Assembly (NCBI GenBank): GCA_027858815.1
Contig: JAQIBZ010000266.1
Location: 1 to 34,876 of the forward strand
Source of the DNA: Desulfobacteraceae bacterium
GTDB lineage: Bacteria > Desulfobacterota > Desulfobacteria > Desulfobacterales > Desulfosalsimonadaceae
Length of the DNA stretch: 34,876 nt
Direction of reading: 5' to 3'
Below the pieces are notes generated by a model. That model was not told where the DNA came from. It saw only the letters and a program-made list of their open reading frames with translations, and searched no databases. Shown here in pieces: positions 6,472 to 12,590 of this stretch (the stretch's first letter is position 1; each line of letters begins with the position of its first letter). Position numbers and translations under genes: made by a program.

Positions 6472-7566
6472 TCATGCGACCGGCAGAATCAGGCTGAAAG
6501 TAGAACCCATGCCTTCCTGGGTTTCAAACTCGATCATGCCATTGTGGGCTTCAATAATTTTTTTTGCAATAGCCAGCCCAAGTCCGGTGCTGGTTTCACC
6601 TGCGGTCGGGCGGATGCTCAGACGGTGGAATTCGCTGAACAGCAGATGTTGTTCTTCTCTGGGAATTCCCGGGCCCTCATCGGTAACACTAAAATCTATA
6701 AGCTCCCCATTCTGCTTCAGGCTTAAATATACGTTTGATCCAATGGGCGCAAATTTTATGGCATTGGTAATAAGGTTGTCAATTGCCTGTCCGAGACGGT
6801 GCGCGTCAAAGATAACTTCCGGAATTAGGGGCAGGTCCCTATGGATAGTGATATGTTTTTTGTCAGCCTGTAGCTGAATCAGCTGAATTCTCTCCTGTAT
6901 TAATTTATTCAATGAGCCGTTTTTCTGTGTAAGCTGCATGTTGCCGCTTTCAATTCGGGAAATATCTAAAAGATCATTGATCATTGCCAGCATATTTTGG
7001 CTGGTGGAATGGATAATGTCTAAAAATTCATTTTGTTCCTCAGTGAAGTTATTCCCATCTTTAATAAGCAGTTCGCTGAATCCTCTGACGGAAATGACCG
7101 GGTTTCTGAGATCATGTGCAACAATACCGATAAACTTGTTTTTCAACTCATTGTTACCGGTAAGTTCTCTTTGTTTCTCGATCAGCTTTCTTTCCAGACA
7201 AACGATTCGTGTTCCTACCTTGATTCGAGCGATTAGTTCCTGAAGGTTCACGGGTTTCATGATGTATTCATCAACACCTGCATCAAAGCCTTTGATTAAA
7301 TCCTGTTTTTCATCTTTGGCTGTCAGCATGATGATAAACACATAACTGCCTTTTTGTTTTCCCCGGATTTTCCGACAGACATCAATGCCGTCCATTCCAG
7401 GCAGAATCCAGTCAATGATGGCAATGTTGATGGGATGGTCAAGAATTGACGTAAAGGTTTCAATACCGTTGGAAGCTTCAAATACATTGTAGCCTTTTTT
7501 TTTCAGGTATTGGGATACCATTTTTCGGGCAGCTGCATCATCATCTGCTATCAGTATGTTCATCAT
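6472..7566 (-). CDS. Response regulator-histidine kinase hybrid (REC-HisKA-HATPase)
   Basis: REC domain (ILIADDDAAARKMV, AIIDWILPGMDG, MLTAKDEKQD, DEYIMKP), HisKA (IVAHDLRNPVISVRGFSELL), HATPase (DNLITNAIKFAP, VTDEGPGIP, TGLGLAIAKKIIEAHNG). Confidence 0.95.
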   Translation of the reverse strand: MMNILIADDDAAARKMVSQYLKKKGYNVFEASNGIETFTSILDHPINIAIIDWILPGMDGIDVCRKIRGKQKGSYVFIIMLTAKDEKQDLIKGFDAGVDEYIMKPVNLQELIARIKVGTRIVCLERKLIEKQRELTGNNELKNKFIGIVAHDLRNPVISVRGFSELLIKDGNNFTEEQNEFLDIIHSTSQNMLAMINDLLDISRIESGNMQLTQKNGSLNKLIQERIQLIQLQADKKHITIHRDLPLIPEVIFDAHRLGQAIDNLITNAIKFAPIGSNVYLSLKQNGELIDFSVTDEGPGIPREEQHLLFSEFHRLSIRPTAGETSTGLGLAIAKKIIEAHNGMIEFETQEGMGSTFSLILPVA

Positions 7567-7657: not shown

Positions 7658-9346
7658 TCAGCTTGAGTAAACTGATTCAATTTCTTCAAAAGAGGTCAGG
7701 CCCTGGAGTACTTTTTTAATTCCGTCATATTTTTTGCTCTGGAATCCAAGCTTTTTGCTATGAATTTTAATTTCATCAGGGGTTGCATTACCGCAGATCA
7801 TTTTTCTGATGTCATCATTGATGACCAATAAACCTATGATACCAATATGCCCGAGATATCCTGTATTGCGGCAATACGGGCAGCCAACAGCGCGCCAGGC
7901 AAATACTTTCGGGGCACCGTCGAAAATAAAAAGATCATGTATTTGCTGAAAAGACAGCTGATATTTTTCTTTGCAATGATCACACAGTCTTCGGACATTC
8001 TGGTGATTGATGATGGATGTGATCTCAGAACCGATTCTCAGTCTGGTGAGGTATATGGCTTCAAATACATCGGGAGCACTAATCCCGGCAATAACAAACT
8101 GTCCGTTTTCAGCTGTCTTTTTAATATCATCGATAATATCCGGGTCTTTAATGTTCTGAACATAGATGACATCCGGATGGAGATTCAGGCAGGATGTGAG
8201 TACTTCTGAACGGGTGAAATTCGCTTTTGGATTGATCTGGTACTGGTCTATTTCATTTAGCAGCCAAGTGGGTGAATCTTCTACTGTCATTATTTTTTTT
8301 GTATGTGTGGAACGAATTTTATTAATGATAGAATATGCAAGGCTGCTGTAGTCCGTTTGAGATGGACCGGAGATAAGCATGATGCCTTTTAAGGTATTTA
8401 TCTGATGTTCAAGCTGCTGCATTTGCTTAGCAGGGATAAATTGTTCAGAAATTTCTGGTATTTTTTGTAATGCCTGCCGATCCATTAGTTTTAGAAAAAT
8501 TTTTTCTCCGAATTCCGTGTGCAGCATTAAAAACTGGATATCAAATTTTTTCCCCGGTGTCGGGAAGATAATCCGGCTGTATTGTGCATCCTTATCATTG
8601 CTGTCTGTAATCTTTGCCAGGGCTTTTAGATTTTTTAACAGTTGATGATATACGTTTTTTTCAATCTGTAATCTTTCATAAAATTTACCGTTTATGATAA
8701 AACAGATTCTGGCAATGTGTTCTTCCGGGTCAATCTGGATTTCGCTGGAGTATTCTGTAATTCCCAAAAGAATCAGGCAAACGTGGAGCTGGTTGATGGA
8801 TTCTTTGCCTGCGATTTCTTCAAATGTTTTTTCACTGATGGGGTTGTCGGCATCAAAAACCTTGCTGGTGGTTATTTTCGTGAAAAATTCATATAATGTA
8901 GTATTGGTCTGGTATTCGTTTTCTATTGCCCATTCAATATCCTGGGGTAATGCAAACACAAGGTTTACCGGTCCCTTGAGGATGCTTTCGATTTGTTTTT
9001 TTAAGGCAATATTATCCGGGATCGGGGTTGCAACAGTAACCGTATCGCCCATTTGATAAATGGGTATCGCATAATTCTGCCTGGCAAATCGTTCCGGCAT
9101 TTTACGAATGATGTTTGATTGAAACAGGGATTTTTCTAGATCAACATGAGCAATACTAATGGAGTCACACCAGAGCTGGCATAGCTGCCTTTTGGTGCCG
9201 ATACCGCTCTGGATCAGTGTTGCTAAAACATCTAAGGCATTGCCGTCCAGTTCATAGAGCAGATCCGAAACAAAGCCGTCAGGAATGATCTGTTTTTCTT
9301 TTAAGATCTTAAAGAAAAGAGGATTTTCAATTTTTGGCGCTTTCAT
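7658..9346 (-). CDS. GspE/PilB-family (type II secretion / type IV pilus) ATPase-like protein with degenerate nucleotide-binding motifs
   Basis: GspE_N-like N-terminal half and C-terminal GspE core (GIMLISGPSQTDYSSLAYSI ... KIMTVED ... QYQINPKANFTRSEVLTSCLNLHPDVIYVQNIKDPD ... RRLCDHCKEKY ... VGCPYCRNTGYLGHIGIIGLL). Walker A/B residues substituted. Confidence 0.85.
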   Translation of the reverse strand: MKAPKIENPLFFKILKEKQIIPDGFVSDLLYELDGNALDVLATLIQSGIGTKRQLCQLWCDSISIAHVDLEKSLFQSNIIRKMPERFARQNYAIPIYQMGDTVTVATPIPDNIALKKQIESILKGPVNLVFALPQDIEWAIENEYQTNTTLYEFFTKITTSKVFDADNPISEKTFEEIAGKESINQLHVCLILLGITEYSSEIQIDPEEHIARICFIINGKFYERLQIEKNVYHQLLKNLKALAKITDSNDKDAQYSRIIFPTPGKKFDIQFLMLHTEFGEKIFLKLMDRQALQKIPEISEQFIPAKQMQQLEHQINTLKGIMLISGPSQTDYSSLAYSIINKIRSTHTKKIMTVEDSPTWLLNEIDQYQINPKANFTRSEVLTSCLNLHPDVIYVQNIKDPDIIDDIKKTAENGQFVIAGISAPDVFEAIYLTRLRIGSEITSIINHQNVRRLCDHCKEKYQLSFQQIHDLFIFDGAPKVFAWRAVGCPYCRNTGYLGHIGIIGLLVINDDIRKMICGNATPDEIKIHSKKLGFQSKKYDGIKKVLQGLTSFEEIESVYSS

Positions 9347-9368
9347 CGTCCTAATGTTAAATCCTGTG

Positions 9369-9533
9369 TCAGTTATTCTTTTTTTTCTTTGCCTTCAGAT
9401 TTGACAGCATCATTTCAGTGATGATTTCCTGAGGAATATTTTTTTCCTGGCTTACATCCTTTTTTTGTTCGAGTAGATCATCCTCAATTTCATTGAGCAT
9501 ATCAGACAAATTATATTTTTCTTTGAGCTGCAT
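9369..9533 (-). CDS. Small 54-aa Lys/Glu-rich protein, unknown function
   Basis: In-frame ATG at 9533 lies 2 nt after the stop of the upstream regulator gene (MQLKEKYNLSDMLNEIEDDLLEQKKDVSQEKNIPQEIITEMMLSNLKAKKKKNN); preferred over the ORF-track start at 9572, which overlaps that gene. Confidence 0.55.
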   Translation of the reverse strand: MQLKEKYNLSDMLNEIEDDLLEQKKDVSQEKNIPQEIITEMMLSNLKAKKKKNN

Positions 9534-9535
9534 TG

Positions 9536-9937
9536 TCAGTTCGCCTTGAGAGATTCCCGGTAAGCTCGCCACGTTTTTTTGATGACATCACACATCTCGT
9601 CTAACGGCAGATCTTTCCGAATAAAACCCGAAGCCCCGAGTTCCATGCAGTCTTCCACCGTCTCTTTGTCGGTAAGAGATGTCAGCATGAGGATGCAAGC
9701 ATTCGGAAATCTTTTTTTAATCTCAGCCAGCGCCTCTTTCCCTGATTTTAACGGCATATTGATGTCCAGAAGCAGCATGTGGGGTTTTAATGTGCAGAAT
9801 AAAGAAACCGCTTCTTTGCCGTTGCCGGCTTCGCCAACAATTTCGCAATTCATTGTTTTTATAACGGTTGTGATGAGTCGTCGGACATGGTCTTCATCAT
9901 CAACGACCATGACCCGCATTTTTTTTTTCGGTTTCAT
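9536..9937 (-). CDS. CheY-like single-domain response regulator
   Basis: REC motifs VMVVDDEDHVRR, HMLLLDINMPLKSG, ILMLTSLTD, GASGFIRKDL. Confidence 0.93.
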   Translation of the reverse strand: MKPKKKMRVMVVDDEDHVRRLITTVIKTMNCEIVGEAGNGKEAVSLFCTLKPHMLLLDINMPLKSGKEALAEIKKRFPNACILMLTSLTDKETVEDCMELGASGFIRKDLPLDEMCDVIKKTWRAYRESLKAN

Positions 9938-10120: not shown

Positions 10121-10207
10121 TGTCATTACGAGAAGTGAGGAACGAACGACGAAGTAATCCCCAGGCATTTATGGGATTGTTTTGGTCGTGCCTCCCGCGC
10201 AATGACA
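10121..10207. repeat. Imperfect inverted-repeat (MITE/REP-like) element
   Basis: TGTCATTACGAGAAGTGAGG...AATCCCC...GGGATTGTTTTGGTCGTGCCTCCCGCGCAATGACA; resembles the widespread GTCATTGCGAGGAGCGAAGCGACGAAGCAATCCC type palindromes. Confidence 0.75.
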
Positions 10208-10300
10208 GAAAAATTGTCGTTGCGCGGGCTTTCCGTTCAACGACTAAATAGAATAATTAATTATCGTTAATTTGTAAAATAATTAGATTGGATTAATCGA

Positions 10301-10362: not shown

Positions 10363-12288
10363 TTATAATGCTTTGGCCATCACTTCGCCAATAAGTTTGC
10401 TGAACCGGGCCGGGTTTTCAATTTTCCCGCCTTCTCCGACAATTGCCAGATCATACAACAAGTTGCTGTAGTCTTTTAATGAAGCATCATCATTGTTTTT
10501 TTCATAAATCGACTGAATTTTTCCCATTACCGGATGGCTGATATTCAGTTCAAGAATTCGTTTTGAATCCGGCATGGACTGCCCGGACGCTTTAAGCAGT
10601 TTTTCCATGTAGGAACTCATATCATAAGCATCTCCGGAAAGGCAGGAGACAGAATCCTTTAAATGAGACGAAGGTTTGACTTCTTTGATTTTATCGTCAA
10701 GTTCGGATTTGATTTTTTCAAACAAAGAGGAAAATGTCTCTTTTTTCTCATCATCTACTTTATCAAGACCCAGGTCGCCTTTTTCCGCACTTTTGAATTT
10801 CTTTTTTTCAAATTCAGGCAATGACTGAATAACAAACTCATCCACCGGATCGGTCATCAGAAGCACTTCAATATCTTTATCCTTGAGGGTTTCTAAGTGC
10901 GGGCTATTGAGAATGGCGGCAAGGTTGTCCCCGGTTAAGTAATAGATGTCTTCCTGATCCGGTTTCATATTGTTAACATAGTCCTGTAGAGAAACCCATT
11001 TACCGTCTGATTTTGTTGTTTTGTAACGGGCAAGCTTTGCAATTTTGTCACGGTTGCCCCAGTCAGAGTGGATACCTTCTTTGATGACGGCACCTAATTC
11101 AGTATAGAATTTGTCATATTCCTCGGTATCCATTTGATCCAGAGCATCAAGAATCTTTTTGACCAGATTTTTGTGAATATTTCGAACCAGCGCATCTTGC
11201 TGAAGAATTTCACGGCTGATATTGAGGTTTAAATCCGGAGCATCGACAACGCCTTTGATAAATCGCAGATATTCAGGAATCAGTTCCTTGCAGTCATCCA
11301 TGATAAAAACACGTCTGCAGTAAAGTTGAACCCCGTGTTTTCTTTCCGGCGTGAACAGATCCATGGGAGCCTGAGAAGGAATGTATATTAACGCGCTGTA
11401 CTCAGTCAGGCCTTCGAGTTTTAAATGGAGCTGGGTCAGCGGGGGATTCCAGTCATGGCTGATGTGCGTGTAAAAATCTTTGTATTCTTCTTCCGTCACA
11501 TCTTTTTTATCTCTGCTCCAGATGGCCTTCATCGAATTTAAGGTCTCTTCTTTAACAACCGTTCCCGTTTTAATGGGTTTGCTGTCTTTATCCAGAACCT
11601 GTTTGCCTTCAGCATCGGTTTCAAACTCGTCATGTTCCACATCCATGACAATGGCGTAGCTGACAAAATCTGAATGTTTTTTTACAATGCTGCGAATGGT
11701 CCAGTTCTCTGTAAAGTCCTGTTCATCTTTTTCCACCGGTTTTAACGATAATATGATATCTGTTCCTCGCCCGTCTTTGGTAACCGGTTCAATGGTATAT
11801 GATCCGTCTCCGGTTGATTCCCATTGTGTCGCGGTCTCTTCCCCGGCAGCCCGTGTGATGATGCTGATCTTATCCGCAACAATAAATGCGCTGTAAAACC
11901 CGACACCAAACTGGCCGATGAGTTCAGGCGTTAACGTGTTCTTATCGTTGGACTTTTCTATTGCCTTCATAAATTCGGCAGTGCCGCTTCGGGCAATAGT
12001 GCCGATATTATCAACCACTTCATCATAGGTCATACCCATACCGTTATCGGATATGGTCAGGGTTTTATTTTCCTTATCCGGTGTGATTTTTATTTTAAAA
12101 TCCGTATCGTTTCTCAGGATTTTGCTGTCGGTCTGGGCCTGAAAGCTGAGTCGGTCAATGGCGTCCGAGGCATTTGAAATTAATTCTCTTAAGAAAATTT
12201 CCTTGTTTGAATACAAGGAATTAATAATCAAATGCATGAACTGCTTTACTTCGGTTTTAAATTCATGGGTTTGTTTTGTACGTTCCAT
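10363..12288 (-). CDS. htpG: Molecular chaperone HtpG (Hsp90)
   Basis: Hsp90 motifs FKTEVKQFMHLIINSLYSNKEIFLRELISNASDAIDRL, GIGxF-type 'LIGQFGVGFYSAFIVADKI', 'FTPERKHGVQLYCRRVFIMDDCKELIPEYLRFIKGVVD'. ATG at 12288 has GAAGGAG upstream; ORF track extends to 12315. Confidence 0.97.
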   Translation of the reverse strand: MERTKQTHEFKTEVKQFMHLIINSLYSNKEIFLRELISNASDAIDRLSFQAQTDSKILRNDTDFKIKITPDKENKTLTISDNGMGMTYDEVVDNIGTIARSGTAEFMKAIEKSNDKNTLTPELIGQFGVGFYSAFIVADKISIITRAAGEETATQWESTGDGSYTIEPVTKDGRGTDIILSLKPVEKDEQDFTENWTIRSIVKKHSDFVSYAIVMDVEHDEFETDAEGKQVLDKDSKPIKTGTVVKEETLNSMKAIWSRDKKDVTEEEYKDFYTHISHDWNPPLTQLHLKLEGLTEYSALIYIPSQAPMDLFTPERKHGVQLYCRRVFIMDDCKELIPEYLRFIKGVVDAPDLNLNISREILQQDALVRNIHKNLVKKILDALDQMDTEEYDKFYTELGAVIKEGIHSDWGNRDKIAKLARYKTTKSDGKWVSLQDYVNNMKPDQEDIYYLTGDNLAAILNSPHLETLKDKDIEVLLMTDPVDEFVIQSLPEFEKKKFKSAEKGDLGLDKVDDEKKETFSSLFEKIKSELDDKIKEVKPSSHLKDSVSCLSGDAYDMSSYMEKLLKASGQSMPDSKRILELNISHPVMGKIQSIYEKNNDDASLKDYSNLLYDLAIVGEGGKIENPARFSKLIGEVMAKAL

Positions 12289-12590
12289 TTCGACTCCTTC
12301 AATGTCTATGTTCAAAATTGTGTAAATTATGACAGATTGGTGATTGATTTTTTATAAAATGGGTGCGATTTTTTATTTGTCAAGCCCCTCTGCTGATTCT
12401 GTGCGGGTAAATAGCTTGTTAAAAGCCTGGTATGGTTTGAAAATAATTTTGAATTGTCTTTTTTAAAAGGCTGCCAGGTGCTAAGATTTATGCCTGAACT
12501 TTGCAAGATTCAGGTATAATGTTTTTTTTCAGGTTCTGTGAATCTGATTTTTTATAGGGTTTTCATTGGGGCAAACAATGGTCTTCATTC

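Follow-up and report, generated by a model that had tools for sequence, protein, structure and literature searches.

A CheY-linked pseudo-ATPase of PilB/GspE fold with a new small partner protein and repeated stepwise loss of catalytic motifs

Introduction

The PilB/GspE ATPases (TIGR02538, TIGR02533, PF00437) are the closest described relatives of the protein reported here, which shares with them the whole fold, an N-terminal MshEN-type domain, and the zinc CxxC pairs. It differs from them in that all of its nucleotide motifs are changed, it lies outside any pilus or secretion operon, and it is paired with a CheY-like protein and a 54-aa protein. Signal proteins act on the pilus extension ATPase in several systems, and reviews describe regulation of PilB by PilZ/FimX and CpiA as well as the CheY-like proteins of Pil-Chp (PMC11656802, PMC12632253); the review of PilB regulation covers multiple ATPases, PilZ/FimX, and CpiA (PMC11656802). 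At the locus described here, in contrast, an ATPase paralog is itself the dedicated linked partner, has lost catalysis, and shares its unit with a new small protein.

Pilus ATPases can also cooperate, and the same review gives PilT-PilU as an example and lists PilB-TfpB hetero-oligomers as an open question (PMC11656802). PilT/PilU provides a precedent for a second ATPase-fold partner that works through another motor (PMC11656802), but these proteins belong to another subfamily and include no CheY-linked pseudo-enzyme. The passages of the review on paralogs, CheY, and inactive ATPases describe no pseudo-PilB (PMC11656802). No paper on a PilB/GspE pseudo-enzyme was found in the literature searched, which lies mostly outside the subscription journals, and as far as that literature shows such pseudo-enzymes are undescribed.

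The window analyzed is a 34,876-nt stretch of DNA (contig JAQIBZ010000266.1) from a Desulfobacteraceae bacterium placed in the family Desulfosalsimonadaceae, order Desulfobacterales.

Results

The window contains a four-gene cassette downstream of htpG, and its features are as follows, with motif positions assigned by alignment of the pseudo-ATPase with seven PilB/GspE paralogs of the same genome.

10363..12315, minus strand: htpG (Hsp90), the upstream neighbor, kept where the cassette is missing
9536..9937, minus strand: CheY-like single-domain response regulator, 133 aa (Pfam Response_reg, E=1e-25)
9369..9533, minus strand: 54-aa protein of a new family, a proposed adaptor, located between CheY and the ATPase
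7658..9346, minus strand: pseudo-ATPase of GspE/PilB fold, 562 aa (Pfam, structure matches, paralog alignment)
8342..8368, minus strand: Walker A position, GPSQTDYSS in place of canonical GPTGSGKTT, with Tyr for the P-loop Lys
8264..8284, minus strand: Asp box position, VEDSPTW (canonical VEDPVE)
8144..8170, minus strand: Walker B position, VIYVQNIKD in place of canonical VIMVGEIRD, with Asn for the catalytic Glu
8069..8089, minus strand: His box position, AGISAPD in place of canonical STLHTND, with Ser for the His
7973..7984, minus strand: zinc site, CxxC pair 1 (CDHC), with the two Cys invariant across the family
7871..7882, minus strand: zinc site, CxxC pair 2 (CPYC), with the two Cys invariant across the family
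6472..7566, minus strand: 364-aa kinase with REC-HisKA-HATPase_c domains (Pfam), the fourth cassette gene

The neighbors are as the original prediction described them, a CheY-like regulator, a 54-aa protein, and a hybrid kinase on one strand with small gaps: 2 nt between the CheY and 54-aa genes, 22 nt between the 54-aa gene and the pseudo-ATPase, and 91 nt between the pseudo-ATPase and the kinase. The kinase is part of the cassette and is left out of the span first proposed (7658-9937); its orthologs in the family are syntenic and have the H-box HDLRNP. The order htpG/CheY-54-aa-pseudo-ATPase-kinase is conserved in every family genome whose contig extends far enough (for G025, the gene of the 54-aa protein falls under the BLAST threshold and was read by eye), and htpG lies outside the module, because it is kept where the cassette is missing. 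No pilus or secretion genes were recognized adjoining the window cassette, in agreement with the original prediction, and across the order surveyed no lineage has a conserved gene of either kind near the cassette or its homologs. No additional conserved neighborhood gene was found in the outer members of the clade.

We note two minor features of the noncoding and regulatory landscape. The htpG-CheY intergenic region contains a near-perfect 15-pair GC-rich palindrome (10194-10228; CCCGCGCAATGACAG...TTGTCGTTGCGCGGG) that is terminator-like on the plus strand and was not found in the other loci compared. A sigma-70-like promoter match (11/12; 9510-9539) overlaps the 5' end of the 54-aa gene, and promoter-like matches in the region occur at about the shuffled expectation.

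The pseudo-ATPase open reading frame begins with ATG and has zero internal stops. It has the full-length fold of the PilB/GspE superfamily, with a T2SSE match (E=1.4e-48) covering profile positions 19 to 368 of 370 and a MshEN match (E=4e-12) restricted to residues 65 to 147, and the closest PDB structures are those of Geobacter PilB (6olj, 5zfr, and 5tsg). Together with the paralog alignment, these matches bear out the predicted GspE/PilB scaffold with its CDHC and CPYC pairs, in which all four cysteines of the PilB/GspE tetracysteine zinc site are invariant in the family. The protein scores below both equivalog cut-offs (214 versus 676 bits for TIGR02538 and 208 versus 630 for TIGR02533), as do intact members of the clade (534 and 555 bits). 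The N-terminal region also departs from its canonical form: the N2-domain D(F/Y)R motif reads DIQ in alignment with the PDB matches, and the Arg and Gly of the MshEN RLGxxL(V/I)xxG signature are missing, as judged by eye.

The changes reported earlier in Walker A, Walker B, the His box, and the Asp box are found at the exact corresponding positions of the alignment with the seven paralogs. At the three residues that characterize a functional ATPase, the Walker A Lys, the Walker B Glu, and the His-box His, the window protein has Tyr, Asn, and Ser, and we conclude from these replacements that it would not hydrolyze ATP. An AlphaFold2 (AF2) model of the protein (mean pLDDT 81; model numbering is full-protein numbering minus one, with the first Met omitted) matches GspE and PilB in Foldseek, with E values down to 5e-36 (GspE). 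In this model a helix starts 3 residues past the first Walker A Gly, whereas in the intact homolog L058, predicted as a control from the same sequence set, it starts 6 residues past the Gly, at the Lys; the phosphate loop is thus absent from the predicted fold of the window protein. The altered P-loop and the model together suggest that ATP binding has probably been lost too in the window's genus.

Another 24 genomes of the family have an ortholog of the pseudo-ATPase in open frame, those that are named being Desulfobacterales-type MAGs, and 23 of these copies are full length, with the one in G006 split across two contig ends. In each of the 23 full-length orthologs, Glu is missing from Walker B and His from the His box, and some family members retain a P-loop-like GPxxSGK(S/T). 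Within the genus, dN is 0.08 to 0.21 and dS 0.6 to 2.3, giving a dN/dS of about 0.1 to 0.15 (NG86, with dS saturated in part). These values and the 24 open-frame genomes uphold the proposal of an intact gene selected as a noncatalytic protein. The replaced motif sites are not free to vary, since the Gln of the changed Walker B is invariant and the Tyr nearly invariant across the family, and the genus mostly retains a D(Y/F) signature where GK is expected.

The module is absent from one genus of the same family (g4), in which htpG, a rhomboid-type gene, and the genes that follow are kept. No ortholog of the pseudo-ATPase or the kinase is present in g4, and CheY and 54-aa orthologs are absent where sought; in this genus the module is cleanly lost or missing.

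Relatives of the pseudo-ATPase (matches at E<=1e-60) occur in 22 of 243 genomes sampled across the order, and a CheY gene adjoins nearly all of them, with a kinase also present at several. In a tree built without the motif columns, 43 CheY-linked proteins are set apart with 100/100 support from the canonical paralogs sampled, which comprise those of this genome and one Omnitrophota protein only. All motifs are intact in many outer members (G120, G061, G156, G048, G044, G235, G041, G552, G623, and PXBG), and in others degradation is partial or complete (G108, G176, G226, G078, G059, G094, and G641). On the tree, Glu in Walker B and His in the His box were each replaced on no fewer than about four occasions, and the P-loop Lys on two, both of them within the window's family and after the Glu and His were gone. 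The linkage of CheY, the 54-aa protein, and the ATPase is ancient, and motif loss has been repeated and stepwise, with purifying selection on the changed protein in the window's genus. Orthologs with intact motifs, regarded in the original prediction as a sign of decay or error in this strain, are absent from the same family, but intact homologs do occur in other families of the order, and as these have the same CheY and 54-aa partners, catalysis was lost stepwise and was not missing from the start. The module would ancestrally have run an active ATPase and shed catalysis in steps while retaining its partners.

A partly degraded member (G641, L183:9806-11659) from the distant Syntrophobacteraceae-like family described below has GPAGSGKGS at Walker A, VVGNAGD at Walker B, and TLDAGN at the His box, and its motifs were apparently lost independently.

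The 54-aa protein is a new conserved family that tracks this ATPase clade, which was overlooked in the original prediction along with its fused form described below. Its members have a pair of short conserved stretches, [K]YDLxxMLxEIxxD and (I/L)(S/P)QxxIxx(L/M)M, and a lysine-rich tail. Throughout the clade, the interval between CheY and the ATPase holds a small open reading frame of 44 to 69 aa (81 aa in one case) that follows the pattern KYDLxxMLxEIxxDE...SQxxIxxMM. No Pfam family scores above cut-off; NusA_N and other weak matches of the window copy are below cut-off, are unshared by other members, and were taken as chance. In a profile search the family was recovered from 21 of the 22 ATPase-bearing genomes and from 0 of the 221 others (Fisher p=2e-29, with fewer effective independent cases as the genomes are related). 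G094 has the ATPase without the 54-aa protein, and in G059 the small protein is located elsewhere.

In a distant, Syntrophobacteraceae-like family of the phylum, the 54-aa domain forms the N terminus of a MshEN-PilT-like ATPase, and this fusion is the strongest tie of the module to pilus-type motors. The fusion loci are as follows.

L136:6295-12059 (G552): 54-aa/PilT-like fusion
L182:3447-9573 (G623): 54-aa/PilT-like fusion
L058:1640-7716 (Syntrophobacteraceae contig PXBG01000151): 54-aa/PilT-like fusion

The fusion in G552 adjoins an ODP-family beta-lactamase-fold protein, a kinase, a CheY, and an intact PilB-like ATPase. The ODP family is known from oxygen-sensing chemotaxis, and an oxygen-sensing input to pilus motors is possible at this locus. 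A 538-aa PilT-like protein of the window's genome was considered as a carrier of the 54-aa domain, and the domain is not present in it.

The N-terminal peptide of FliM (motif LSQxEIDxLL) binds phosphorylated CheY (CheY-P), and the C-terminal segment of the outer 54-aa proteins, (L/M/V)SQ(D/N/E)xIxx(L/M)(L/M), is similar to it (e.g., LSQDEIKKLL). When scored against FliM N termini, all 14 outer members tested fall in the top 1.3% (p<=0.013) relative to 2433 unrelated 50-aa segments; members from the window's family score weakly (p 0.005 to 0.12), with the window copy at p=0.12. In contrast to FliM docking, however, the FliM Asp is missing from the 54-aa proteins and the partner Lys119 is not conserved in the module CheYs, and FliM-like docking of CheY by the 54-aa protein is a lead suggested by sequence resemblance and not a finding.

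The CheY-like proteins themselves have the acidic pair, phospho-Asp, T/S, and Lys of functional receivers: among 38 module homologs D13, D57, and K109 are invariant and position 87 is T or S (E. coli CheY numbering). No FliM was found in any of the ten cassette-bearing family genomes tested, and the cassette CheY therefore does not serve a flagellar motor, ruling out a flagellar role in this family.

The distribution of pili offers little guide to function. PilM- and PilT-type genes are present in all 43 genomes tested, including those of g4, so that pilus presence or absence is uninformative; their persistence in g4 without the cassette also indicates that pili do not need it. The window's genome (663 contigs) has PilT and PilB/GspE homologs elsewhere and only a weak PilM_2 match, and its pilus locus may be incomplete.

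Discussion

The four genes (9937-6472) would form one two-component output module. The kinase, judging from its domains, would set the phosphorylation of CheY, and CheY-P would act on the pseudo-PilB either directly or via the 54-aa protein, which is the likely coupling element. With its PilB scaffold and zinc domain kept, the pseudo-PilB most likely acts at the platform of a type IV pilus or type II secretion system whose genes lie elsewhere. As a scaffold or competitor gated by phosphorylation, it would control access of the real motors to that platform. This path, from kinase through CheY and perhaps the 54-aa protein to the pseudo-PilB and the platform, is the most economical, although we infer the contacts, the direction of phosphate transfer, and the target in a pilus or secretion system, and we believe and doubt it in about equal measure. 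The suggestion in the original prediction of a signaling scaffold or pilus regulator stands insofar as this is a selected, noncatalytic protein in a two-component cluster; regulation of a pilus assembly with genes at another site is plausible. A more specific version, which we offer tentatively and think somewhat improbable, is that CheY-P docks on the FliM-like peptide of a small adaptor and switches a pilus-motor paralog, whose motor function was lost repeatedly to give a phosphorylation-switched scaffold; this would be a new kind of two-component output and an independent analog of the flagellar switch acting on pili.

Retention of the full-length PilB fold and zinc domain would also suit a dead partner subunit that forms mixed rings with an active PilB/GspE paralog and modulates the motor, while CheY-P would control how the two mix. 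Several active-looking paralogs are encoded in the same genome, and cooperation of PilT with PilU, together with the question raised for PilB-TfpB, offers a reviewed precedent (PMC11656802). However, the clade has long diverged from the genome's own paralogs, none of the active ones is colocalized with the cassette, and the inter-subunit site looks partly altered, with DIQ in place of D(F/Y)R in N2, and we consider mixed rings unlikely. We likewise doubt that the protein is a signaling scaffold unrelated to pili and secretion, serving as a phosphorylation-dependent platform for another client. The lack of linked pilus genes in any lineage and the presence of PilM and PilT types in g4 without the module are consistent with such a client, and the repeated loss of catalysis suggests that a motor is unneeded for signaling, but the fusion of the 54-aa domain to a PilT-like ATPase and the many outer members that are intact PilB-like ATPases point to pilus-type machinery, at least ancestrally.

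An unconventional yet active ATPase is a much more remote prospect: nucleotide binding may persist in the family members that keep GPxxSGK(S/T), but the window protein has all of Lys, Glu, and His replaced and its model is missing the P-loop. Motif loss by itself can resemble decay; a decaying pseudogene or a sequencing or assembly error is nevertheless refuted by the orthologs, with open frames in 24 relatives, strong purifying selection, invariant cysteines, and synteny, and we assign it virtually no probability.

The routes by which signals reach pilus motors are an open question. Living intermediates are available, from an intact ATPase through loss of the His box and loss of the Glu with the P-loop kept to complete loss, and across them the CheY partner is the same and the 54-aa partner nearly always present, so that conversion of a motor to a signaling protein is directly testable in this lineage.

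Finally, we note two observations on other ATPase genes. In G010 (L051:9691-11835) a PilT-family gene pair lies about 0.8 kb downstream of the cassette kinase, and tandem PilT pairs of this kind are unlinked to the cassette in many relatives. The window's genome also has two near-identical GspE-type paralogs on separate contigs (L003, G000:C131; L002, G000:C381) with end branches of about 0.05, which possibly reflect a recent duplication or bin contamination (6.2%).
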